Below, in pieces: positions 411 through 60,965 of a DNA stretch of 64,000 bases. Origin of the DNA: Clytia hemisphaerica (taxonomy: Eukaryota > Cnidaria > Hydrozoa > Leptothecata > Clytiidae); NCBI GenBank assembly GCA_902728285.1, contig CACVBU010000950.1, forward strand, positions 32,239-96,238. The letters run 5' to 3'. A program made the position numbers and the translations under genes. The notes beneath the pieces were generated by a model. That model saw nothing but the letters and a program-made list of their open reading frames with translations. It searched no databases and was not told the origin of the DNA. Position 1 is the first letter of the stretch; the number at the start of each line of letters is the position of its first letter.

Positions 411-1433
411 TAAATCTTTATATTGATCAGTACCTTTAATCTTTTCAACTGATCTCTATGGAACAATTTTTTTCTGCGGATACTTGCCTGATACAATACT
501 TTTTATACTTTCCTGATCATGAAAATCAGTTTTGAGATAAATGATATTGAAAAGATTTATGTTCTTATACTCAGATCTTATATACTGTTTAATTTCTTGT
601 AAGTTGTCAAACTTTAAAAGAACTGAAGTTCCAATACTGCCTTCAACTTGATGGCCTTCGGCGTCTCTGCTATGCGAGTCAAAAAAAAAGTAATTTTTGT
701 TATAGTGCATCACAGCTAGGTAATTTCCAGCTATCACTAAAAATGCACCAGAATGTTGCAACAAGAGTTCCTCCTGAACAAAATTTACTGAAATGTTACC
801 GGTCTCAAAATAGCCTTCAAAAATATTGAAATTAAGTGCACAAGTGCTGTTTCCTATTTCAATTACCTTAGAAAACTCTTCAATATATGGGGACTGTCCT
901 GTAATACCCAATTTTTTGAAATTCAGATCACCTTGATCTAAAACATAATCCAAATCATGAGTCTTCCATAGCGACAATTTTCTAAATTGAGCATAGCAAA
1001 TAGCAAAAAAACAATTCGAGGAACATTGTATACCTGCCGTCTTGCCAAATTTACTGTTGCCCTGGTGAAATGAACCTTGAACAGTTGGGCCTGGGTTAAG
1101 TTCTACATCGCCTGATAATAAGAGTGTGTAATTAACTTTGAAAAAAGTAAGGTTCGGATCTCCCGCTACATTGGGATATTGAACGAAAATTCCATTTCTT
1201 GAAAGATTGAGAAATTCTAGAGGTGTGTAAAGCTCTGTTAGCTCAAACGATTTTGGAATTGCAAAACATAGGAGGGTAAAAAGTGCTATGAAACGTACAG
1301 GTTTAAAAAGTTTTGAGAATGCATTATTGGAAAGGTCGGAACCAACAATAATAGATTTAGCGACACATTTAACGTTTCTCTGAGCTGTAAAAGCAAAACT
1401 TCCTATGCGTGCACGATATAATGCAACAGAATA
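207..1433 (-). pseudogene. 2A-like peptide + cysteine protease (OTU/C76-like) ORF, decayed
   Basis: One minus-strand frame stays open from 1433 to 207 except for a single TAG at 458-456. In order it shows a hydrophobic segment (FIALFTLLCFAIP); the 2A-like motif LLLSGDVELNPGP at about 1124-1086, whose G-P bond is the expected ribosome-skipping site; a Cys box (AGIQCSSNC, first Cys codon 1025-1023); and FFFDSHSRD (His codon 674-672) followed by GTSVLLKF, the spacing seen in OTU/peptidase-C76-like domains of invertebrate mobile elements. After the stop the frame resumes directly into the basic repeats. There is no ATG between the upstream TGA (1436-1434) and the 2A motif, so the start is missing or lies in another exon. 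Seen: motifs, stop and frame. Family knowledge: Helentron-type Helitrons carry OTU proteases. Inference: this is the N-terminal part of such an element, with helicase off the window edge. Confidence 0.72.
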
Positions 1434-25682: not shown

Positions 25683-28600
25683 ATGTCTCAGAAGCCTTCG
25701 AGTATGAGCAGAATGGAGAATTTTGATTGTTACCTCAAGAAGAGAGCTGCTGACACACAGCAGGCTAAATTGGTCAGCTTGGAGGAATATCTCTTGATGG
25801 TTGAGTTTTTGAAAACTCGCCAGATAGTGGGTTGCAGTCCAGCTGATGTTCGAAACATTCGAAAGAAAATTAGGCGTAACAAGATGATTTTAAAAGAAGA
25901 AGATGGAAAAGACATTATATTGATGTCGAAAAAAAGGGATGATCGTCAGGTAAAGTCAATCTGTTCATAGCTTTTTTAACCAAACCAAGTTAAATCCTAG
26001 TGTCAAAAAAATGATTCTTGATACACTCTGCATAATAAATCTGCGTAATAAATAATAGAGTGTCAGAAAGTCTGCACTAATTTTTCCTCAATATTTTTTT
26101 GCTGGAGTATACAATAATTCAACCTGGTATCATCTACAAAAAAAATATTATTCAGTTTCTTTCTACTGCATTTCCTAATTTCCTTTTGATGATAACTTCA
26201 TGTATTGATTTTTGAATTGAACAAAACACAGACAGCTGTGTTGGTTAGAGATGAAATAATTTATTATGTTTCTACTATTATTATGATGTTAGTAATTTGT
26301 TATTCAATTAACTATCGTGTTCTTCTAAATGTTGATAAAGTGTGTTATTTGTGTTATAATAGTTTAGGTTTTTCATTTTGAAGTTCTGCATTTCCAAATA
26401 ATTTTTTGCAGGGCCCGCGCCACCGGGGGGGCCGGGGGGCCATGGCCCCCCCACTTTTTTGCAAAGCAAAATAAAAAAATTCTCCTAACCTAATTATTTT
26501 TTTCTTTTCTGTGCGCGTGCCAATAAAAACATTAGAACCTTTCTAAATGGTCTAAAATAAGTCTAATTTAAACAAACAAACTTAACAGTTTTCTTTCAGA
26601 AAATCGGAACAAAAAGGAAGCTGTTTTAGCCAAATAAGACAGGTCAAAATCGAAAATTTTCCGGCCCGTCGACGCAAACCATGGTTGCGCCTCCTTAGTC
26701 ACTATATTTTTGTTGGCCCCCTCACTTTCAAAATCGTGGCGCGGGCCCTGTTTTGTCCTATTGGCTCAGGACCCAAACAATATTGTGAAGGGAATTTGAT
26801 TAAATTTTTGCTTTTGCTTGATGGGGAGTTGAAGAAAATGGATCACTTTAGAGTTTCAAGCTTTGATATTGAGTCATTTTGTTTACGTATGCCTTTATTT
26901 TTATTCTTTTGACATGGGTCTGAGTTTTAAAGTTATCTTTGTGGGTTGCAAAAACTAGGTTGATGGCAAATTTGACAAGTTTTCATTTTTCTTAAGTTTT
27001 CAGCCAATAGCACTTTTCAAGATCCTCTTGTTAATACTTCTTTTGAGTTCTGTGTGGAAGTTACAATGGGAAGCAGTGCATTTCATAAAATATGTCAAGC
27101 TCACTAAATTTTTAAGAAATGCAGATCCAATCAGTATAGACCTTTGCTAGGCCTGGTGTCTCATGCTGAGTATTTAATAACTCCAGCATCAAAGCAATGA
27201 TAATAACAAATGGTGAAAACTTATAACAATAATGCATTAATAAGTCATTGTTTTGATGCTGGAGTTTTTATTATTCACCATGCTTGTCCAGACGTAATTC
27301 AATCAAAAGTTAAATCACCAAACTAATTGAACTTTGTCGAACTTAATCGAGCAAGTAAAGTTTAATTAAGTTTGACAAAACATGTTAAGTTCGACAAAGT
27401 TCGGCAACTAGAAATGCTTGACAATTTCAACAAAACTTCGTTCAATTTGACAACAAGAAATATTCAACAGAAATTGAATTGTCAAAAAAGTTAGAAAACA
27501 AAAAACAAATTGTTAATAAAATTTTCTTTTCATTAGTACTTTTCAAGACATTTAAATTTTAAGTTTCATGACGTCATTAAATATGATATGACGTCGTAAA
27601 CCTAATTACTTGAAAAAGACAAAAAATTATTCTTTTTAGCTGGCATTTCTGAAATCTACATCTTAATATACTTCTTTTGACGTGTAAATGACCATGTCAA
27701 AGGCCTCAGATTTTTTTCTCCAAACTTATGTCCTTTTTGGATATGCCATAAGTTACACAAGGGACCATGGTGATCTTTCTGGGGAACTTTTAAAGAGATG
27801 AGATGAAATTTTTGCACAAAAAGTTACCTCATAACAAGTCAACAGTAGAAGAAAGAAGTTTTTGATACATCCAACAGATCATAAGTTCCGAGACACTCCG
27901 AATTGAAAAAAGCTAGGAAATTGAAATTTTGAGAGTAAGTGCTCTTATATGCTCTTCAAAGGATAAAAAAAAAAGAAAATTTATTCTCAACTTTTTGAAA
28001 TTTGGTCAAAATTGAAAATTTTAGATTGCCGTGCACATCCCACTTACCAAAAGGTCTATTCAGCTTGTAATATTACTATCTGTTTCTACACTGTTTTTTA
28101 TTTTGATTATAGTTATCAGAGCGATACGGTGCATATCGCAGATTTCTGCCGATAACTGAAATTCAAGATGTTATCATCGATTTTGTACATCCCGATAAAG
28201 GCAAAATTGAAACATACTTAGAGGTATCAGAGGTTTTATTTACTTAGTTTTGTTTGTAATTTTTATCGATATTGAATTAAAAGAAACAAAATTATTATGA
28301 ATTTTTACAGTAGCATTGCTGAGAAACATTTAGCATTAATTTCAATTTTATTAAAAGGGAAACCCTTCATAGTCTTTAATTTATAATGATTTTACAACCA
28401 ATACTGTTTCTGAGATAATTTCTTCTATTAAATGAGAAAATTTCTTCAATGTTTTTTATCTATTCGTTTTCAAATATTCTTCATATCATATTAAATAGGA
28501 CTTCGTCTTTTATGGATGCTTGGAAGTAAAAGTAAAGTATAAAGTGGAAAAATTAGATTTCTCTTGTTTTTTATTTTAGTTGAATAAAGACTTTTTTATC

Positions 28601-31600
28601 CCTCGGTCTGTGGTATCGGCATTTATTGATATTGTCGGCAGAACATTCCAAAAACCAATAAACTTGAAATTTATGGAATGTTTAAAAGTAAGTTGAAAAA
28701 ATGTTGATAAATATTGGTATAAAATGAGTTACAGAGATGAGTACTTGTATATAAGTTTTGCTGATGAGTATTTGAATAGATTTGTTTCTTTAAATGATTC
28801 ATTTTTACTATGTTTTCGATTAGATATATGCAATGACCAATAAAAAGCAGCTTGTAATTTATAAATATAAACAGATCACAGACAAAAAATAATCACTTTC
28901 ATACGACATTATTATGCTTTTTATCTTTCAAGATCGATGTGATTAATGTGTCGTCTGCTGGCAAATTGGTACATTGTTACGATGTCCAAACAAACTTCTC
29001 ATTTGCATTATTTAATACAAACTCGATAGATGTGAATGAGATTGCAGAAGAAATATCTGAATCAGTTGTCAGTTTGTTTGGTCTACCACAGACCATCATT
29101 TCAAACCTTCAGTGGAATTTGGTGGAAGTGCTAAATGATATTTGGGCCTCCAAAATTTTTAATGGCGGTGTTCAGCCATCGGGAGATTCATTGCTACCCT
29201 TCTTAAAAGAGAAAACTGAGAGAAGGAGCCTTCAAAAGATTTTGTGTGAGTATTAAGAATCTTTTTTTTTGAATTAATGAAGATTAGTCAAATTACACAC
29301 CATTTTATTCAACATTGCCAGGGGTGAACTGCATAGAAAGGAAAAGTTTTGTAATTTATTTAGTTTCTTGATCTAGATAATTAAGTATTTAAGGTCAATT
29401 TGGTTTTCTGTATTTGTGGTTTTAATTCGTTTGAATTCTTTCAAGCATTGTTTTTAATTCATCCACTCAACTTTCATCATAAAATTACAATCTATTGATT
29501 TGTATTCTATTTTAGTGAAATTGAACACGACTGAAGAAAATGGCAGAATCTCCCCATACGAGCAGGCTTTGGCAAGGAAACCTTGTGTCCCAGGTACGAA
29601 ATATTTAAAATAAGTTATTGCTCTTGCATGACGCCATTCTCCCAACCCAGAACTCTATTTTATTATTTACCTGCCAATCGATCTAGTTCTGAGAAGAAGA
29701 TAATCAAATGAACTGTATTTTTTATGAAAGAAAATAGAGAAAATGTTGAATCATATCAATTATTATTTTGAACAGTGTGGCACACATAATTAGTTAAATG
29801 TCATAGATTGACCTTCAATTTTGTTCAAATTATTCTATTCAAAAAGATCTTCCTTGCTACTTTCAATCTTTATCCTAAATTTTCATTCAACGTTTTCTTT
29901 TTAATTTTCAGCCAGCTTGTATGGAACACCCCAAGACGGAGGCCAAACAATGAACGATACCCTTAATGCTAGGTGAAGGAAATAATCTATATCAGTCTTA
30001 AAATAGTGTAATTCCGTTTATATTCGTCAAGAATTGGTTTGTTTATACAATACTAGCAGTTTGACACTTTAAAAAAGTACTAACAAACATTATTTTAATT
30101 GTTTGCATGATTTCATTTCAGTGATCTTGAAGATGAAGATGGTATCGACGACGATGTTTTTGCTGTTGCACTGAATTCAACAGCATATCACGGTAAGATG
30201 ACGAAAACGTATTTTAATAGGAAAATTTATGTTTAGCTTAGAATTCCCTCCTTTTAGATGTAGAATCTGATATATATTGATAATTAAAAAAATTTGTTAC
30301 TATCTTCAAAAGATTTCAGGGCAAACTTTGATCAAAAGTATTTCTTCACATTTCTTTATTTTAGGTGTTGAATGTAGAAGGTTGGTGGATGTCCAATTTC
30401 GAGATGGTAACAGGTTATCCTCGATAGCGTCTGCCACCACCAACCAAACAACGCGAAACATCGCCGGACAAGTTCTTCCACTCCCAATTGTGAGCCTTCT
30501 CATATATTCATTTTATTAGTTACATTCCATTCCTTAAGATCGGTTGCAATAAATGAGAAATGGATAAGCCGGTAAGGCTCGGAAAATATTGCTAGCTTCA
30601 AGACTGACATTACAGACAAAACTGTGAGGGTTTTTCAAAGGAAAGAATTCAACAAAACTGATTTATACTAGACTTAGGTGAGGGTATTCTTTTCAAAGTA
30701 AAGGTTCTACAGAAGACAATCCTAGCTTCAACAAAACAAGAAATACAGCCTATTATGGCTTACTAATTCCTGTAAGATTAGGTACAATTTATTTCACATT
30801 TCTAAGCACTGTGTGGATCTGATAGAATTTCGAGCTTCAAATTACTGTATTTCCTTGTGTATTAGAGTAGGTGACTTGTTGTAGCACACATTTGCCAGAT
30901 GCTGTACCCGATATTATCAATTTTTCACCCAGTTAACTTCAGTGCAATACCAGTCAATTTTCAAATCTTTTCCCTGACACTTTTAGCCTGTAACGTCATC
31001 TTTTTGCGATAACCAATAACTTGCCCTACCTTTTTCATTTACACCTAAACTTTTAACCTTAACTTTTTTTAAGTATGGAAATAGTCACTCAGAACTCTCA
31101 AAGATACTCAACTTTGCTATAAAATCCTATTTCCCACTTACGTACAATTACCCTTTGAGTACAGTTTTGCGTTGAACTCCACTTTGATACTACATTTGAA
31201 AATACATGTACATGCCCATTCAGAAGCCAGTCTGAGCTGTCTCCCAAAATCTTTAGATTCTCGATGAAGTGGTCGTAACCTTTTTAGGAAAATTTTACAA
31301 AATGACATTCAAAGCAGCCTTAACCCTTAACATTCTTAACTGACTATCATTTTCAGGTAAAATCCACTGAGGAAGTAGATGCGAGGCTGCTCACTCTATG
31401 TGAGCAGGATATTTCAAGTAAAATCTCAAAAGTATTAACTAAAAAGTAAGTATAGGATAGGAATTTTTCAACATTTTCTAGTTTTCTTGTTTTACATTTA
31501 ATTTTATTCGAGAACTAGAATTAAAATGATTTCGTTTAAGACTCTTTAAAAAATACTAACAGGGCTGAGGTCTCCTTTCCTTGATAATTTTGGAATCTCT

Positions 31601-34600
31601 ATAATCATACCATTTTTAATAGTTTTGTCACGAAGAAGATTGGAGAGGGGTCGTTTGGGGAAGTTTTCATGAAGGAAGAAAATGGGGAGAAAAGTGTAAT
31701 AAAGGTAACTTTTGATTTTATTTTTCCAAATACATAATTTTGTACGTGAAAACTTTAAGGATTTTATGTCTATTTATTCATTTATATATTTAAGAAATTA
31801 GGCCCTGGGGCCCTTTTTCGCTACATGTAAACTATAAGTTTGTTTACATTGTAGATTTTAGGTGTTATAAAACAGTTTATTCATTTCGACTTCACTTATA
31901 CACTCATCAGCTTGTATTTTTTTGTATGCGTGAGGCTTCTTTCTGATTAATAGTAAATAGAAATATCTCTTGACTGTATGTTATAGATTATACCAATTGG
32001 TTCGGAGGAAGGAAAGACGAAGAAAGAAGTGCTCATAGCAGAGATTGCAATCAATAAGTAAGAAATTTTCATCTGTTATAATGCTTTACTTCCACATATT
32101 TTACGACAAAGCTCAGAACCTTCTTTGGGACTTAAAAATTAAAAAAAAACAAATTTAGTAACATTGCGTACGATGAATCGCTGGAATTGAGAAAAAAACT
32201 TATTTATCAAATAATTAAAAACTGTTCTGTTGTGCCGTTTTATTTCTTGTAGAAAAATGTCAAACTGGAATGGTTTTGTGAAACTGAAAGCGTAAGAACC
32301 AAACAATTAGCACTGATATCGAACACACTCATCTTTGGAAATAACGTGAAAACCTTTTAAATTTTAAAATCTGGTCGTTTCAAAATCTGAAACAGTTTTC
32401 ATGCATCGTGACACAAAATGAAAACAATGTCAAAAGAAGAACTCAAAACTACCTGATGGTTTCTATTGTTTTACAAGACATGTGGTTCAATTTACAATTG
32501 CTATGTTCCTTTAAATACTGCTTATACTATCAATTTTCCGTTGCCATAATTAATAAGATTTTTTAATCTATTGCCAGTTATTGAATTCGTGCTCATTAAA
32601 TATATAGTATATAAATTACGTCACAAACATCACTTGCCTCGTATTCAAATGATTACCATGGTGATTATGTCCCTTAATACATCAAATGATTTTTTTATGA
32701 ATAGAAAGAAGTTTAATAATAAAATCCATTGGGAGTTAATCACCATGGCAATAATTTCAAAACGAGGCAAGTGATGTTCGTGACGTGATTTATGAAAAGG
32801 TTTATAACACATCTGAGTTGTGATTGCAATATATTTCTATAGGGCATCAGTTTGTAGCGGAAAGTATCCAATTTTTTTGAGAAGGTTGTGGAGTGAATGG
32901 GCGGAGAGCAATGACTCGTATAATGTGGATCCGGGTATGATATTATAATCCATTCATTTTAATTATTCGCTCGTTTTTTACTACATTTATGGAGACAGCT
33001 CTTGAGTTTAATTACGCAAACATAGTCTCCACGTGGTAACAAAAACGTATGCATATTCAAAGCAAATGAATTGTAAATCACTTACAATATTTGGGTCATG
33101 AGTTTAAGTCTAGAACAGTATAAGTTTAAAAATATATAAATTTGAACGAAAAACTCTTGAGTTTTTATCGAAAGTTAACATTCTAAAATCAGATTGGAAG
33201 CGAGAAAGCTAGTCGCAACAAGAGTGTGTTTGCAACCGGGTGCCTGTTTAAGTGTAGTGAAACTTTCTTGAATTGTTGTCATACATTACGACTTGTACTC
33301 TTTTTTTTCTATTCCATACCAACCATTTATTTTTCTTGAAACTTTTCAATACAAAATATTATGTTTGATCTTGGTTTGTATTTTCTCATAGTCATTTCAT
33401 CTACAGATTAAAATTGTATTGTTATTTTTGCTGCTTTATTTCAGAAATATACAAAAGCAACCAAGAATATGTTGTCATGGAGCTGTGTCATGGAGGGGAT
33501 ATGCTAGAGGCAGCGGTAAAGAAGTTTTACACGATGACAAACATTGTCAGTGCCATCAAACAGGTATTTTCCTTATAATTTCTTACAAATGAGTTTATTG
33601 GTAATTTTCAAATGCTTTGGGGAACTCGTATTGCAATTGACTCAGTATCGAGTTGGTGTATAATTGTCAAATCGAGTCAGTGTATAATTGTCATCAAATT
33701 ATCAACATCTTTTGATCCCTCACTTTCACACTTATTTTTCTAGCTCGTCCTCACTTTGGCTGCCGTGGAAGACTCCATTGAGTTTGAACATCGGGACCTT
33801 CACATGGGGAACGTGCTGGCAGGCCATGACCCCAACAAGCCAATTCTTGAATTTGATGTGTGTGGCGATGTGTACAAGGTCCCGAGTAATGGTTGGGTGA
33901 TAACCATTATTGATTTTACACTTTCACGGCTGCAAAGTGGTGAGTAAATATCTGTTTTTTTTTTCACCATGGTATTCATTATGCTAAATAGTTAACCGGT
34001 CACTTTTTCGAAGCGGGCTACACGACTTTTTGCGCAATGCAATTGGTTCTTTTCGCATGACGACGGGCCTACACTGGCCAGAGTTGCCCGTCGTTAGGAA
34101 AATTCATTGTGACGTCACTTATTGCAAAGGAAAATGAACAATGCGTTGACATCATTTCTCTCATTTTTTATCGTAGTTTATAAATGATAACTTTGCGAAT
34201 CCCCCACTGCATGTCCATTCCACTCCTTTTACATTTCTTTCATATGAAAACCATTTTTGGACCTACCTCCGGGTACCCCGGTGGAGGTTCTATAAATTAA
34301 CCCTCGTCCGTTCGTCCGTCCGTCTGTCTGTTACCAGCTTTTCTCAGGATTGGCTCATTAGTTTTTTCTGATTTTTTGCACAATGATGCAAAATGGCAAT
34401 GCCCAGGACGTGACGGAGCCTGATTTTTGAGAAAAAATTTATTTGGGCAAAAATGAGGGCCGAAATCTACCTAAAAATAGGGTTTTTTGGAATTTGTGCA
34501 AAATCCTGTCATTACTTTTTTCTGATTTTTTGTACAAAGATGGAGGGCAAGATTCTCTAAAGAATGGCTGAAGTGGTTTTTCCCGGAAAATTCTTATTCG

Positions 34601-36459
34601 CCTTAAAAAACGAATTTTCGTATTTTGGGGAAATTCCCTTTAACCAAATAAGAAAATATAGCTCTTCTCAAAGTTGGCTCGTTATTTTTTTCTATTTATT
34701 TGCACAATGATGCAAGATTGCAATGCCTAAAATGTGACGGAGACCGATTTTCGAAAAAAATTATAATTGGGCAAATTTGGGCCAAAAATTGCCTAAAAAT
34801 AGGGTTTTTTAGACTTTGTGTAAAATCCTGTCATTACTTTTTTCTGACTTTTTGTACAAAGATGGAGGGCAAGATTCTCTAAAGAATGGCTGAATTGTTT
34901 TTTCCTGGAAAATTCCTATTCGCCTTAAAAGACGGATTTTCGTATTTTGGGGAAATTCCCTTTAACCAAATAAGAAAATGTAGCTTTTCTCAATGTTGAC
35001 TCATAATTTTTTTCTGATTTTTTGCACACTGATGCAAAATGGCAATGCCCAAAATGTGACGGAGCCAGATTTTTAAGGAACATTTTTTGTGCAAATTTGG
35101 GCCAAAAACAGCTTAAAAGGTTTTTTGGGCCTGAATGGTTTAAGTGATTTTCGTATTTGGGGAAATTCCTTTTTACCATTTTACATTATTCAACACACAA
35201 GCTTTATTTTTCCATTCTAAATTTTTGTACAAATATTGTCACTTTTTTCTTATTTTCATCTGATGTTAATCATTAGGTAGGTCCATTCAGAATGTTGCTT
35301 GTTATCATTGTATTTAAACTTGTTTTCACATTTCCGTTACAATACATTTGATCATGAACTGACATTAGTTCACTATGTTTTTTATGCAACCGTGTGACGA
35401 CGAAAATTGCAAGCCAATGAAATTCTCGATGTAAAGCGTTCTTTTCTTGAAGAAGGATTTCATGATGTTAAAGATTTTATATATAGTTACCAGTGTGGAT
35501 TATACTTCCCTGTAAAACATACGTTTTTCCTTACTATTTTCAGAGGATTGTGTAATATTTACCGATCTTTCTAAAGAAATGACGCTGTTTGATGGCGGTC
35601 GCACCATGACACGGCTGATGCAAGCTGTCCGCGAAGATAACGGGTAGGGAACTGATTTCTTGTTGCTAAAAAAAAATCGACAGTTGTGCTATACCCTATA
35701 CCGGGTGTATAAATAATAGCCTATAGTTGAGGAAACTTTTTATGAAATTTGAAAAGTATTGCAAGTATTGCTTCGATGGTCAAAATGTTAAGAACAAGTT
35801 AAAGGCTTCGTGGACTGTAAAATATCTAATTTCTTAGGAAAATAAACAAAAATACTCAACAAATGGCGAAAATAAGAGTATGCTAAGAAAAACTTTAGGC
35901 TTAAAACTCAAAAAGTTAAAAATATGTATTCAGAATTTTTGGATGTTCTTATAAAAAAAACGTTTATAATATGTGTCTTTGTTTCGATGCAATGAAGTAA
36001 TCAGTTCCGACCAACTAGTTTTCATTGTATTATTGACGACTTCACAATTTCAGAGCATTTAAATAAACTTCTTTAAGAAAACTTAAAAAGCGTAGAAGCA
36101 GCAAATTGATAAGACAGAAGATAGAAGCTTCAAAAGAAATTTTCGTCATTTTACTTGACTTTATCAGCACATCTTTTTTGCAACCAAGTAAAGATATCTT
36201 CAGATTAGGGTCTCTTTAAAACATAGTTTATTATTGATTTCAATTCTTATCTTCTTCTTTTTGTCATTTCAGAAATGATTGGAAAACTTTCAACCCCCAA
36301 TCAAACGTGAGGTGGATTTTGTTTTTATTGAGGGAGCTGATTAAACGGTGTGAACATACGGTGAAGTTGAAAGGTCTTTTGACCAGACTCGAGCGATATA
36401 AATCGTGCTATCAGATGCTGCCTCATTTTGACGAGATATTCGATATGACGAAAAAATAA
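25683..36459 (+). CDS. integrase-like domain / haspin-like kinase fusion, 17 exons, 702 aa
   Basis: Exons: 25683-25949, 28113-28223, 28580-28687, 28933-29245, 29516-29593, 29912-29972, 30122-30192, 30365-30489, 31357-31445, 31623-31704, 31987-32057, 32253-32291, 32843-32934, 33445-33563, 33744-33939, 35544-35643, 36273-36459. All introns are GT-AG and phases agree at all 16 junctions; total 2,109 nt with TAA. Residues ~20-310 resemble integrases of the gypsy/Ginger type as kept in KRBA2-like host proteins; ~410-700 are a haspin-type Ser/Thr kinase, a family that phosphorylates histone H3 Thr3 in mitosis. An acidic, Thr/Ser-rich linker joins them. An in-frame stop precedes the first ATG; the third ATG (25713) has the best Kozak context. 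Intron 1 (2.2 kb) and intron 15 (1.6 kb) hold repeats. A variant poly(A) signal attaaa lies at 36649. It could alternatively be two genes mis-joined, but the phases argue against this. Confidence 0.85.
26409..26750. mobile_element. TIR element (cagggcccgcgccac) in intron 1
   Basis: Perfect 15-bp inverted ends cagggcccgcgccac / gtggcgcgggccctg enclose 342 bp that also has inner inverted ggggggccatggccccccc and catggttgcgcctcc. No clean TSD was found (only a shared ttttg). Diverged relatives occur near 46.4-46.7 kb. Confidence 0.75.
27168..27266. repeat. hairpin MITE in intron 1
   Basis: aataactccagcatcaaagcaatgat pairs with gtcattgttttgatgctggagttttta; ~26-bp arms around a ~45-bp loop. Confidence 0.7.
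32611..32793. mobile_element. palindromic MITE in intron 12
   Basis: ataaattacgtcacaaacat...gattaccatggtgatta pairs with taatcaccatggcaat...atgttcgtgacgtgatttat; arms of ~62 bp with ~85% match, 60-bp loop. It lies between exons 12 and 13 of the kinase gene. Confidence 0.75.
34265..35175. repeat. ~325-bp tandem repeat in intron 15
   Basis: Units begin near 34,336, 34,661 and 34,983 with gcttttctca..ttggctc and contain cacaatgatgcaaaatggca and gtgacggagcc; the third is partial. The array is preceded by a (tccg)n/(tctg)n tract at 34,306-34,331 and ggtaccccggtggagg. A single inverted copy lies at 7.8-8.0 kb, so this is a dispersed family. Confidence 0.8.
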
Positions 36460-47150: not shown

Positions 47151-47461
47151 GTAGGTAAAGTCTGGACAACCAACATTACGTTTTTTGGTTTATAAAGATT
47201 AAAATGTTTTACGTAGAATACGACGGAGATCCATTTGTGCTACAATGGAACCTCCAATTGGCAAACGCCATTGAGGAAAAGAGTTGGTGTCCGCTAAATG
47301 GAAGTGTACGCCTTTTAGAAACTTTTTAATTGTGTGCTCTAATACATCCTGTGTCAAAGATCCACTGGGGCCCCAGCCCGACAGAAACATTTGCCAAAAA
47401 TTGTGTCCCCGGTGGGAAAATACTCTGCAATTTAAGCCCCACTGGAAAATTATCAACATAG

Positions 47462-48520
47462 CCATTTAAGTTAAATGTTTCCAAATCTATGTTTGCTTGT
47501 TTTATTGAAAAGAAATACTTCTTGGAAGAATGCTAATTTACATTCATTGAAGTCACTCTGAGCTGGATGACATGCAAGTGTCCATATCGGTTGCGTCTAA
47601 CCGATATGGCCATTTTAGTTTAATGTTTCCAAATCTTTGTTTGCTTGTTTTTATTGAAAAGTAATATTTCTTGGAAGAATGTTTCAGTTAACTTTCATTC
47701 ATCGAAGTCACTCTGAGCTGGATGACATGCCAATGTCCATATCGGTTGCATCTAACCGATATGGTTATTTTAGTTTAATGTTTCCAATTCTTTGTTTGCT
47801 TGTTTTTATTGAAAAGTAATATTTCTTGGAAGAATGTTTCAGTTAACTTTCATTCATCGAAGTCACTCTGAGCTGGATGACATGCCAATGTCCATATCGG
47901 TTGCATCTAACCGATATGGTTATTTTAGTTTAATTTTCCATTCTGTTTGCTTGTTTTATTGAAAGAATATCTTGGAAGAATATTTCAGTTAATTACATTC
48001 CTTAAGTCACTCTGAGCTGGATGACATGCCGTGTCCATATCGGTTGCGTCTAACCGATATGGCCATTTTAGTTTAATGTTTCCAAATCTTTGTTTGCTTG
48101 TTTTTATTGAAAAGAAATACTTCTTGGAAGAATGTTTCAGTTGATTTACATTCATTTAAGTCACTCTGAGCTGGATGACATGCCAATGTCCATATCGGTT
48201 GCATCTAACCGATATGGTTATTTTAGTTTAATGTTTCCAATTCTTTGTTTGCTTGTTTTTATTGAAAAGAAATACTTCTTGGAAGAATATTTCAGTTAAT
48301 TTACATTCATTTAAGTCACTCTGAGCTGGATGACATGCAAGTGTCCATATCGGTTGCGTCTAACCGATATGGCCATTTTAGTTTAATGTTTCCAAATCTT
48401 TGTTTGCTTGTTTTTATTGAAAAGAAATACTTCTTGGAAGAATGTTTCAGTTGATTTACATTCATTTAAGTCCCTGAGTGGATGATTGCAAGTCCATATC
48501 GGTTGCGTCAAACCAGAGAT
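47462..48520. repeat. ~155-bp satellite, 7 monomers, perfect palindrome in most
   Basis: ccatatcggtt-(6 nt)-aaccgatatgg recurs at 47,582, 47,737, 47,892, 48,035, 48,190, 48,345 and, broken, 48,494; spacing 155, 155, 143, 155, 155, 149. The 11-bp stem is invariant in six copies while only the loop changes (gcgtct/gcatct). The remainder of each monomer (gtttgcttgtttttattgaa, ctgagctggatgacatg) is highly similar. The array ends exactly where the LINE sequence starts. Confidence 0.93.
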
Positions 48521-53934: not shown

Positions 53935-54900
53935 CCTAGTTTCATTCCTAGTATTCATTGTTTAACAGTGGACTAGGTCAGATTGTTTAACAGTAAACCG
54001 GACATGACTATAGGTTAAATTGTTAAACAGTGGACTAGGTCAAATTGTTTAACAGTGGACCGGACATGACTATAGGTTGGATTGTTAAACAGTGGACTAG
54101 GTAGGATTGTTAAACAGTGGACTAGGTTGGATTGTTAAACAGTGGACTAGGTTGGATTGTTAAACAGTGGACTAGGTTGGATTGATAAACAGTGGACTAG
54201 GTTGGATTGTTTAACAGTGAACCGGACATGGCTAGGTTGGATTGTTAAACAGTGGACTAGGTAGGATTGTTTAACAGTGGACTAGGTCAGATTGTTTAAC
54301 AGTAAACCGGACATGACTATAGGTTGAATTGTTAAACAGTGGACTAGGTAGGATTGTTTAACAGTGGACTAGGTCAAATTGTTTAACAGTGGACCGGACA
54401 TGACTATAGGTTGGATTGTTAAACAGTGGACTAGGTAGGATTGTTAAACAGTGGACTAGGTTGGATTGTTAAACAGTGGACTAGGTTGGATTGTTAAACA
54501 GTGGACTAGGTTGGATTGTTAAACAGTGGACTAGGTTGGATTGTTAAACAGTGGACTAGGTAGGATTGTTAAACAGTGGACTAGGTAGGATTGTTAAACA
54601 GTGGACTAGGTTGGATTGTTAACAGTGGACTAGGTTGGATTGTTAAACAGTGGACTAGGTTGGATTGTTAAACAGTGGACCAGGTTGGATTGTTAAACAG
54701 TGGACTAGGTTGGATTGTTAAACAGTGGACTAGGTTGGATTGTTAAACAGTGGACTAGGTTGGATTGTTAAACAGTGGACTAGGTTGGATTGTTAAACAG
54801 TGGACTAGGTTGGATTGTTTAACAGTGGAATAGGTCAGATTGTTTAACAGTGAACCGGACATGGCTAGGTTGAATTGTTTAACAGTGAAATACTTTCTGG
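53935..54900. repeat. 25-bp minisatellite (gttaaacagtggactaggttggatt)
   Basis: About 35 copies of a 25-bp unit with a higher-order variant containing aaccggacatgactatag (29-31 bp). The left third mixes variants; the centre (54,420-54,830) is nearly pure, as expected from recent local expansion. It begins right after the LINE 3' tail. Confidence 0.95.
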
Positions 54901-57599: not shown

Positions 57600-58742
57600 A
57601 TGGCGGAACAAGAGTAAGTGTAATTAAAATTCTTTGAATTCCCCAAATATCCAAGTAATCTGACACATATTGAAAGTGATAAAAGGCTCAGCCATCACTG
57701 AGAGGATAATGGGTCATAACTAAGTTACTCATTTCACTTCGAGATACAGGAACTAGCTGGTATAGCCATAGATTCTTGTTTTGCTCGTTGTTTTGTCAGA
57801 TCAGAATAGAAAGAAACAATAGGTTAAGCCCCCAGGGCTAACCGTTCCACAATACTTATTACCTGTGGTAATATGTTTTCTCTTTTATGTCACAGGATTG
57901 CCAACAAAGAGAAACAGGCAGCTGGCTCAAGTAAGAGAAGTGCTGACGTCCTGGGAGAAGATGAACTTGAAGGGCCAAGAGCTAAAGTGTCTTGTCTAGA
58001 ACTTTTTGAAGAGGACAATGCAATAAACTTAAGATCAGATCTAGCGGATCAAATAAACAACTACATTCGCAGACATGTCTCGGACAAAATTCTAAAAGAG
58101 AAGATTTTGGAAGACTATCCGATTCCATCTAACATAGACAAACCTCAGAATTTGGATATGTTTATGAAGGACACTTTAACCTCTTACAAAGCATTTGCTA
58201 TGGCGAGAGATAGCCAATTGTATAACATTCAGTCTGGTATACATAAGATTTTTGGACCACTGGCCAATCTTTGGGAATTGGCTGAGGAGGACAAGAAAGA
58301 CCTGCTTTCTAAGGAGGATGTCCCAGACGAGGTGAAGGAAAAGATGGAGGAAATGTGCCGTTCCTTTACCAATGTTATTGCACTTGTCGGACAGGCGTCG
58401 AACAAAGTTGCATATTATAGACGTTTAAACATGGTTGAAAATATGACAGGCGACTCTAAGAGAGCCAAGGAACTTCTAAGTGAAAATGAAGAAGTTTTAA
58501 ATGAAAAATCTTGCAACCTTTTTGGTGAAAAGTTTGAGGATCTCATTGTCAAGTTAGCCAAATCCAAAAAGAAATCAAAGATGCATTGTCTAATCTTGCA
58601 TCACCCAAGCCGGTATCCAAGAAGCCCTTTCACAGGAGCTCTCTATCAAATGCAGATCAAGGAGGAGATAGGGGCGTGGAAACCGAGGTGCCTTCAGTGG
58701 TTGGTTGGCCAGGAGTCAGTCATCCTTCAACAAAAGAGGTAA
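57600..58742 (+). CDS. DIRS ORF1 (Gag-like) with a predicted intron
   Basis: The large frame lacks a good ATG. A short first exon 57,600-57,613 (ATG GCG GAA CAA GA) ends at a canonical gtaagt, and ttatgtcacag at 57,885-57,895 is the acceptor; joining gives MAEQEIANKEKQAAG in frame with the body. The rest is acidic and helical (SDLADQINNYIRRHVSDKIL, MEEMCRSFTNVIALVGQASN), as in DIRS Gag-like proteins. It overlaps the RT frame at its 3' end. The intron (282 bp) is inference from sites and frame; introns are known in some DIRS elements. Confidence 0.65.
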
Positions 58743-60147
58743 GCCATCCTCCTTCAAATCTTCTGGAAATTCTACCAATGGGGAAATTTCCAAATGTTCT
58801 CCCAGCAATAAAGGGGCTTTTCCAAAGGAGATCCCTCAAACACCATTAGCAGGAAGGACAAAGTTCTTCCTGGAAAACTGGAAGAAACTAACAAGCGATC
58901 AGATTTTATTAGAGATGGTGAGCGGGTACAGAATCCCTTTTCTAGAAAACCCTCCCCCAGTTTTGAGACAAAACCCTTACGTTTCTCAAGTAAGTCAGGA
59001 CATGAGGGAATTAATCCAGGAAGAGGTGAAAAGTATGTTGCTCAAAGGGGCAATCGTGACAGTGACACCATCACCAGAACAGTTTGTCAGCCCTCTATTT
59101 TTGGTACCAAAGAAAGACCAGGGGCAAAGGCCAGTGATAAATCTGAAAAACTTGAACAAATTTATTCCATACGAACACTTCAAGATGGAGGGATTATTTT
59201 TAGTGAAGGAAATTCTGAAGGACTGGATGTTAAAAATCGATCTCAAGGATGCATATTTCGCCATACCTTTAGATCAGCATTCTCAGAGGTTTGTGAGATT
59301 CGAATGGGACAAGACCCTATACCAATTCCAGTGTCTCTGTTTCGGTTTATCTCCAGCTCCAAGAGTGTTTTCAAAAATTCTGAAGGTTCCAATTTCACTT
59401 CTGAGGAGATTAGGGATTCGTTTAATCATATTTCCGGACGATATCCTGCTAATAGCCTCGACTCCAGAGGAGTTGAGACAGATGAGGGACACAACTATTT
59501 TCCTTTTGCAAAGTCTTGGGTTTCTAATAAATGTCAAGAAGTCAGTTTTCGAACCAACCCAAAAGATAGAATTCTTGGGGATGATAATAGACTCAATCAA
59601 AATGACTCTAAGCCTTCCAGAAGAGAAGGTGGTTGCCATAAAGAAGCAATGCTCAGAAATGTTAGAAAAGGAAAAGGTTCCCCTGAGGGAGTTATCGAAA
59701 CTAGTGGGCAGGTTGTCTGCCTCAATGCTAGCAATATTACCAGCACCCCTTCAATACAGGAGCCTTCAACGACAACAGATTTCAGAGTTGAAGGAACAGG
59801 GTTCATACAATCATGTAGTGGAATTGACAGAGGAGGTGAAAAAGGAAATAAATTGGTGGCTCTTGAACCTAGAACTTTACAATGGGAGGAGTCTAATAAC
59901 CCCACCTCCACAGATAGTAATCCAAACGGATGCCTCCAAAACAGGATGGGGAGATGCTTGTCGGAGTTTAAGAACAGGGGGTCCATGGTCTCTGGAGGAA
60001 CAGCAGGAACATATAAATGTTTTGGAATTAGAAGCAGCCAGGATAGGTCTATTGACATTCATACCAAGGTTCAGGGCAACGTCGGTTCATATTCAGATGG
60101 ACAATACAGTATGGAACAAAAGATTGATCCCGTTCGATGTCCTGTAA
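58705..60147 (+). CDS. DIRS reverse transcriptase - RNase H, 3'-truncated
   Basis: RT motifs in order: SPLFLVPKKDQGQRPVINLK, WMLKIDLKDAYFAIPL, QCLCFGLSPAPRVFSKIL, IIFPDDILLIAS (59,425-59,460), FLINVKKSVFEPTQKIEFLG. The catalytic FxDD reads FPDD where DIRS elements normally have Y/FLDD, one C/T change that may inactivate it. RNase H: IQTDASKTGWG and HINVLELEAARIG, HIQMDNT, after which the frame runs into recombinase-linker DNA and stops. The region overlaps ORF1 in a different frame (+1 relation); no ATG at the RT start, so frameshift or re-initiation is implied. Confidence 0.9.
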   Translation: MARSQSSFNKRGKPSSFKSSGNSTNGEISKCSPSNKGAFPKEIPQTPLAGRTKFFLENWKKLTSDQILLEMVSGYRIPFLENPPPVLRQNPYVSQVSQDMRELIQEEVKSMLLKGAIVTVTPSPEQFVSPLFLVPKKDQGQRPVINLKNLNKFIPYEHFKMEGLFLVKEILKDWMLKIDLKDAYFAIPLDQHSQRFVRFEWDKTLYQFQCLCFGLSPAPRVFSKILKVPISLLRRLGIRLIIFPDDILLIASTPEELRQMRDTTIFLLQSLGFLINVKKSVFEPTQKIEFLGMIIDSIKMTLSLPEEKVVAIKKQCSEMLEKEKVPLRELSKLVGRLSASMLAILPAPLQYRSLQRQQISELKEQGSYNHVVELTEEVKKEINWWLLNLELYNGRSLITPPPQIVIQTDASKTGWGDACRSLRTGGPWSLEEQQEHINVLELEAARIGLLTFIPRFRATSVHIQMDNTVWNKRLIPFDVL

Positions 60148-60965
60148 AGCATATTCTAGATTTTCTTACTGATCTGTGTACAAAGGGACTCCAATATAGT
60201 ACTATAGGTGGGTACAGATCAGCAATTTCAGCTTTCCATGAAAATTGTGATTGGTCTTCGATAGGAGAACATCCTCTTGTCAAAAGGCTGATGGTTGGTA
60301 TTTTCAACAAGAGACCACCTCAACCTCGTTATGGATTCACTTGGGACGTTGAAACGGTCCTTAGGTACATAAATGGTTTAGATTCTTCTACAATAGACAT
60401 TAAGTTACTGGCATTAAAACTAACAGTACTGTTGGCCTTAACCGGGGCATCCAGGGCTTCAGAACTTAACATTCTTGATACAAAGTTTCTATCTAAGTAT
60501 TCTTCAGTTTACATCTTTGAACTAGATGGTGTAACTAAAACACAAAAGCCTGGGGATTCGCCGACTAAAATAAAATTGTTCAGATTTCAGGAGAACTTAT
60601 CTCTTTGTGTGTGCCATACAATAGACGAGTTCTTGTCTAGAACTAAGGAACGAAGGGGAACGGAAACTAGACTCCTAATATCACATATCAAACCATATAG
60701 AAGAGTTTCTACAGACACAGTTTCAAGGTGGTTAAAAACGATAATTGGATTAGCTGGCATTGATACTAAGATTTTTAAAGGACATTCTACAAGATCAGCG
60801 ACCACTTCTAAAGCTTCCAGTCTGGGGATCTCTGTGAGGGAGATCTTAGAAAGAGCTAATTGGACAAATGAGTCCACTTTCCAAAAATTTTACAACAGAA
60901 AAATTGATCCTGGTAAAGGGGAGAAATTCCAAAAGGCCTTATTGAGTAGCTTTGAACAGGGGTAG
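60100..60965 (+). CDS. DIRS tyrosine recombinase
   Basis: The frame continues through VKHILDFLTDLCTKGLQYST, HPLVKRLMVGIFNKRPP, LALTGASRASEL (first catalytic Arg), KGHSTRSATTSKA (H-x-x-R, His codon 60,783-60,785), ANWTNESTFQKFYNRK (nucleophile Tyr) and stops at TAG 60,963-60,965 inside the right terminal repeat. All expected catalytic residues are present. The N-terminal start has been lost by the deletion fusing RNase H to the recombinase, so no independent start is visible. Confidence 0.9.

Follow-up and report, generated by a model that had tools for sequence, protein, structure and literature searches.

A haspin-type kinase gene of Clytia hemisphaerica with a probable mobile element-derived N-terminal part

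The gene described here occupies positions 25683-36459 of a 64,000-nucleotide stretch of Clytia hemisphaerica DNA (assembly GCA_902728285.1, contig CACVBU010000950.1, positions 32,239 to 96,238 of the forward strand), hereafter called the window. It encodes a haspin-type kinase that follows an N-terminal part resembling a degenerate retroviral-type integrase. The evidence supports a haspin kinase fused to a further coding part, and it is probable, not proven, that the N-terminal domain stems from a mobile element. As an overall reading, we consider it likely that the product is a host kinase of the haspin type whose N-terminal ~290 residues derive from a now catalytically dead integrase of the Gypsy/Ginger type and may dock the enzyme on chromatin or on partner proteins. 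Sequence comparisons make a fused gene with an integrase-derived N-terminus, taken by itself, very likely; our confidence in this derivation is slightly reduced because the significant matches of paralogous loci lie mainly in a single motif region, the SPYE tail.

The joined gene and its kinase half

The exon chain was rebuilt base by base (Table 1). As proposed in the initial annotation, it consists of 17 exons without phase conflict and forms a single frame of 702 residues without a stop; all 16 introns follow the GT-AG rule. The closest in-frame stop upstream of M1 is the 18th codon, with no intervening ATG. D164, N220, K435, E454, D560, N565 and D599, as well as the SPYE tail starting at residue 279, were all found as originally named. 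Intron 15 contains a 322-bp tandem repeat (window 34336-35109), and short elements with inverted ends, perhaps small non-autonomous transposons, were noticed by eye in introns 1 and 12 (window 26410-26755 and 32620-32800).

Table 1. Exons of the integrase-like/haspin gene in window coordinates.
Exon	Position	Strand	Residues	Content	Basis or remark
1	25683..25949	+	1-89	M1; N-terminal extension of integrase-like part	Chain and P0001 identity
2	28113..28223	+	90-126	First half of degenerate H2C2-like stretch	Chain and P0001 identity
3	28580..28687	+	127-162	FFIPRSVVSAFI	H2C2 CxxC missing here, present in one C691 copy
4	28933..29245	+	163-266	Integrase-core-like; D164; N220 facing second catalytic Asp
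5	29516..29593	+	267-292	Integrase-like tail SPYEQALARKPCVP
6	29912..29972	+	293-312	Linker	Chain and P0001 identity
7	30122..30192	+	313-336	Acidic linker	Chain and P0001 identity
8	30365..30489	+	337-378	Linker	Chain and P0001 identity
9	31357..31445	+	379-407	LLTLCEQD; haspin homology begins	Pfam, P0001 identity
10	31623..31704	+	408-435	Glycine-rich loop, K435	PDB match, P0001 identity
11	31987..32057	+	436-458	E454	PDB match, P0001 identity
12	32253..32291	+	459-471		Rebuilt chain; extra G at 11/12 junction in deposited protein
13	32843..32934	+	472-502		Chain and PDB match
14	33445..33563	+	503-542		Chain and PDB match
15	33744..33939	+	543-607	HRDLHMGN catalytic loop (D560, N565), IIDFT (D599)
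16	35544..35643	+	608-640		Chain and PDB match
17	36273..36459	+	641-702 and stop		Chain and PDB match

A protein search in which 7989 candidates were scored returned 20 proteins at an expectation value (E) <=0.001, namely P0001 and 19 haspin-domain proteins, none of the latter being listed with an integrase domain. P0001 is the EukProt entry TCONS_00032528-protein of 476 residues, and its residues 1-460 are identical to the rebuilt protein. TCONS names are in use for Clytia transcripts (PMC10620158). This transcript-named protein joins exons 1-11, from the N-terminal part across the boundary into the N-lobe of the kinase. It lends independent support to this part of the chain. At the junction of exons 11 and 12, P0001 has one extra G, so that exon 12 is read in another frame, as is exon 13 up to a stop near its start; this early termination of the deposited protein speaks against our reconstruction. 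The canonical 11/12 junction preserves haspin homology. In this assembly no GT-AG junction accommodates the extra G, so that a difference in assembly or a wrongly set junction is likelier than a genuine isoform with a truncated kinase. Since P0001 shifts frame after exon 11, the frame of exons 12-17 is based on splice signals and homology.

The Pfam family Haspin_kinase (PF12330) spans residues 388-672 (E 8.1e-38; 130.8 bits versus a curated cut-off of 25), and human haspin structures match residues 411-672 (E 1.4e-39). A haspin-type kinase had been proposed for exons 10-17; the kinase and its catalytic residues stood up, and the homology already begins in exon 9. As in haspin (GSG2) kinases of this family, the kinase domain is whole, the K/E/HRD/N/D residues are present (the complete set being K435, E454, D560, N565 and D599) and DFT replaces DFG. 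The fused protein differs from them in its N-terminus, which resembles an integrase and not the N-terminus usual in haspins, and in its catalytic loop, which reads HRDLHMGN here versus HRDLHWGN at the C20 locus described below and in 5 of 9 other haspins checked. The kinase is quite likely active. Haspin marks histone H3 and helps to position the chromosomal passenger complex.

Paralogous loci, history and selection

The genome searched comprises 417 Mb in 951 contigs. With the haspin part (31 candidates scored) nine matches were obtained, three of them on contig C20, two on C656, and one each on C691, C622, C285 and C276. Those on C656 are the gene described here, at 65964, and a second one carrying stops, at 106177. 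The C285 and C276 matches are weak (26 bits), and the former appears by eye to belong to another kinase. All 49 matches of the N-terminus fall on C656 or C691.

On the plus strand of C691, an exon matching residues 164-247 (30.6%, E 3.7e-7) lies ~4 kb upstream of haspin exons. Weak hits, exon order and splice sites were used to assign counterparts of exons 1, 3 and 5 there by eye, that of exon 1 being collinear and weak (E 8); a piece 67% identical to exon 2 is located at C691:170244-170372. On the minus strand of C622, an exon with FNTSRLNSPYEKVFQRKPTIPG, containing the SPYE tail, and an integrase-like exon 4 are found upstream of haspin exons; this locus was assigned by its SPYE exon together with the order, the strand and the exon boundaries. 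Across the three loci, exon 4 opens with Ile-Asp in phase 0, and both exon 4 and exon 5 close in phase 1. The C20 locus looks like a conventional haspin. Within 20 kb there, tblastn revealed no integrase exon, although it would miss one as diverged as exon 4 of C622.

A kinase tree of 10 rows, from which three of nine outside rows had been dropped as the motif filter missed their start and in which C622 was represented without some pieces, grouped C20 with the three fused loci (97/95) and, with lower support, the fused three together (82/85). According to this grouping, the fusion would have come after haspin was duplicated in this lineage and before the three loci separated. As an alternative history, the N-terminus may have been lost at C20.

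Tandem arrays of exon pieces were also observed. On the minus strand of C656, at 112234-115526 (5 matches) and 206366-212941 (11 matches), arrays mix two exon-4 types that resemble the present gene and the C691 gene; some copies have stops, others are open over residues 161-232, and the arrays can be read as local duplication or as variant exons. On the minus strand of C691, a tandem array at 172394-174397 is made up of 13 pieces that match part of exon 1, mostly its residues 49-85.

Over residues 161-232 of exon 4 (72 codons), the ratio of nonsynonymous to synonymous substitution rates (dN/dS) was 0.14-0.17 versus five C656 copies, which are near identical to each other and therefore non-independent, amounting to about one comparison. 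Three of these five comparisons showed 17 synonymous changes against 11 nonsynonymous ones (Fisher p ~1e-6, using hand-entered site counts). Versus C691 minus-strand copies, dN/dS was 0.35 for residues 224-259 of exon 4 (36 codons) and 0.14-0.47 for four pieces of the haspin part, these five pieces comprising few changes and stop codons being skipped. Exon 4 looks to be under constraint. The low ratio in exon 4, together with the exon-4/5 boundaries and phases shared by the paralogues, supports the earlier proposal of an old and maintained fusion.

Integrase ancestry and rival explanations

The integrase profile used for the comparisons combined 30 of the 119 listed, closely related integrases of the Ty3 type with two outliers (P0140, P0141), and 12 integrase loci of the same genome, fetched out of 150 scored, served as targets for tblastn. 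Against these loci C622 reached E 3.1e-5 and C691(+) E 5.9e-4, with none of 300 shuffles as good in either case; the kinase half of the present gene, used as control, gave E 1.1 with 140 of 300 shuffles as good. One C691 alignment spans from the FGRP stretch to the tail (E 0.001). The present gene aligned with the L045 integrase over residues 189-299, N220 facing the Asp. Similarly, in hhalign, HMMER and a profile alignment with stricter gaps, residues ~195-220 coincided with the helix and the second catalytic Asp of the integrase, N220 facing that Asp as the initial annotation had proposed; the profile alignment with cheaper gaps puts N220 elsewhere.

The N-termini of the three loci each match a different part of the integrase profile in register, at 0.5-2.7 bits. 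When a six-sequence family alignment was compared with the profile by hhalign, the score was 23.2 over 192 columns, which none of 150 column shuffles reached (mean 12.8, standard deviation 2.4, maximum 22.3). Furthermore, two C691 minus-strand exons (2 and 3), joined from separate partial copies, one of these exons retaining the CxxC pair lost in the present gene, matched Integrase_H2C2 as the sole Pfam family listed (E 0.015), below the curated cut-off (15.8 versus 25.5 bits). Exon 3 of the C691 minus strand alone matched no Pfam family, and a chimera of the C691 CxxC exon and C622 exons gave no Pfam hit.

Other results weigh against an integrase origin. A profile search of residues 1-310, named in the initial annotation as a refuting test, detected no significant integrase similarity. 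The N-terminus alone matched no integrase family in Pfam or NCBIfam and no PDB sequence at E<=10, and a protein search with it (1947 candidates, E<=10) returned only itself. The hhalign comparison of the N-terminus with the integrase profile was non-significant (E 0.07-0.08), and unfiltered HMMER scored 0.6 bits versus 5.2 for the best of 1000 shuffles. The stricter profile alignment was equalled by 38 of 200 shuffles and by 26 of the 68 natural controls; cheaper gaps lowered these counts to 27 and 18, respectively. In tblastn the present gene reached E 0.032, equalled by 10 of 300 shuffles.

The paralogues add further points of this kind. C622 was not recovered by direct search with the N-terminus of the present gene, and the HMMER scores of all three loci were surpassed by shuffles (best of 5000: 6.8-9.1 bits). 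The significant tblastn matches fall mainly in the tail exon (query residues 86-121 in C622 and 141-162 in C691); the core of C622 reaches E 0.19 only, and the cores of the paralogues are weaker than their tails. No integrase family was found by Pfam in C622 exon 4, C622 exons 4 and 5 or C691(+) exons 3-5. The probability assigned by hhalign itself to the family alignment was 2.45% (E 0.019), the C622 row being poorly placed.

AlphaFold on P0001 without an alignment yielded a useless model with a predicted local distance difference test score (pLDDT) of 33. An alignment containing 32 integrases raised pLDDT to 56, and blocks within residues 101-140 and 191-240 averaged 79-88; since this second model is driven by the integrase alignment, it is not independent proof. 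A Foldseek comparison of the N-terminus had also been proposed at the outset; with the integrase-fed model, none of its PDB matches reached E<=0.001, and the 50 listed out of 297 included no integrase. The predicted structure thus counts against, or at least not for, an integrase fold. Of the proposed degenerate integrase in exons 1-5, what can be upheld is an ancestry of residues ~90-292 that is credible only through the same-genome paralogues; from this protein alone it is non-significant.

In the DDE triad, D164 is kept, N220 stands in second place and the third acid is replaced, Q243 being opposite to it in the MAFFT alignment and P251 in the BLAST alignment to L045. The HHCC zinc ligands are incomplete, exon 3 of this copy being without the CxxC that appears as CDRC in one C691 copy. 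To judge from these residues, the integrase-like part is catalytically dead, and the loss of CxxC adds to the points above by arguing against zinc-dependent (zinc-finger) DNA binding.

Closer integrases were sought by DNA-pattern searches of viral_contigs, which yielded one true integrase, L002. Thirteen other loci detected by pattern were rejected as they did not read as integrases, three loci from a later pattern search were likewise rejected on reading, and two further searches found no integrase. Related-locus searches gave one locus (L002's own contig) and two loci.

The N-terminal half could be a domain specific to this lineage and of different or unknown origin, its FG.P and SPYE..KP likeness having arisen by chance. 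This would agree with the non-significance of this protein alone, with the lack of a Pfam integrase for the C622 or C691(+) exons and of integrases among the Foldseek matches listed, and with significant paralogue matches lying mainly within one exon. We nevertheless hold it to be unlikely, given the three paralogues that match three integrase stretches in register, if weakly, the shuffles of two paralogues (0 of 300) and of the family columns (0 of 150), and Integrase_H2C2 as the sole family listed for C691 exons 2 and 3. A transposon may instead have captured a haspin gene, so that the loci would be element copies or relics rather than host genes. In line with such a capture, partial copies are many, including 49 N-terminus matches and the arrays of exon 4 (C656) and exon 1 (C691), and introns can occur in Ginger transposase genes, among them those of Hydra (PMC2836005). 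The 49 matches are, however, confined to two contigs instead of being dispersed and dN/dS in exon 4 is low, which renders a capture improbable.

It is very improbable that a haspin copy and an integrase relic next to it, two genes with separate transcripts, were joined only by our picking of exons. The stop of the deposited protein in exon 13 would suit two genes, but the same protein links exons 1-11 over the boundary, and two more loci have identical order, strand, exon-4/5 boundaries and phases. Several C656 and C691 copies contain stops and scrambled exons, as expected of a decaying pseudogene family in which this copy is open by chance. To this idea we attach hardly any probability, as the present copy is open over 702 codons, is represented by a transcript-named protein and has a dN/dS of 0.14-0.17 over part of exon 4.

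Known relatives, other window features and possible role

SETMAR carries a Mariner transposase at the C-terminus of a methyltransferase, whereas here a retroviral-type integrase would stand at the N-terminus of a kinase. To our knowledge, the partners in SCAND3, KRBA2 and NYNRIN are not kinases. These three are listed as integrase (rve) derived genes with introns (PMC3257199). SETMAR/Metnase is described in PMC3424704 as a transposase gene joined to a histone methyltransferase gene, and in this joining of a transposase gene to the gene of a histone-modifying enzyme it resembles the present case. GIN1/GIN2 and Imagin are host genes from Ginger1-type integrases (PMC2836005, PMC3424704, PMC12863088). 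Like the gene studied here, they are multi-exon host genes with an integrase-derived core, and GIN2 and Imagin likewise lost DDE residues. They are reported to retain the HHCC zinc finger, and the passages cited mention no kinase, whereas the present gene has lost CxxC and carries a kinase. Among the open-licence literature on haspin with integrase, transposase, gene fusion, cnidarians or Clytia, no paper among those listed was about such a fusion to judge by titles and the beginnings of abstracts.

Elsewhere in the window, a DIRS-type-like element was recognized by eye at 57828-60965 on the plus strand, with a gag-like frame, a frame for reverse transcriptase and a third, overlapping frame whose end resembles a tyrosine recombinase. 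A 325-residue frame on the minus strand (456-1433) contains DVELNPGP, which we take to be a 2A-like ribosome-skipping motif as in elements without long terminal repeats (non-LTR elements). Satellite-like arrays with 155-bp and 25-bp units are located at 47461-48514 and 53957-54887.

If a haspin-type kinase did acquire a dead integrase module, a haspin duplicate would have gained the integrase exons and the fused gene would then have spread to at least three loci (C656, C691 and C622), the conventional haspin staying at C20. The integrase would have lost catalysis and, in this copy, the CxxC half of the zinc finger. The kinase would presumably act on a haspin-like substrate, e.g. histone H3 Thr3, and the dead integrase core would be a docking or multimerising module placing it on particular chromatin or partner proteins. 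Because the CxxC pair and catalysis are lost, DNA cleavage or zinc-dependent DNA binding is unlikely in this copy; docking on chromatin or on another integrase-fold protein, or self-association, fits better. We infer a targeting role for the N-terminal module, and its docking function in particular is a tentative proposal to which we give somewhat less than an even chance. It is a rather far-fetched thought that this hydrozoan has a small family of haspin-derived kinases, duplicating locally, in which the dead integrase domain recognizes intact integrases or their DNA and directs haspin-type phosphorylation to mobile-element chromatin as a genome defence, the alternating arrays of the two exon-4 types (4A/4B) on the same contig being a reservoir of variant recognition exons.

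A lineage with both a conventional-looking haspin and haspins bearing a mobile element-like module would be a natural experiment on the re-targeting of a chromatin kinase. With it, the SETMAR principle of combining a mobile-element module with a histone enzyme would come to include a kinase and an integrase, and it may show a route by which a chromatin kinase acquired a new targeting part. Since Clytia is a laboratory animal, this idea is testable.

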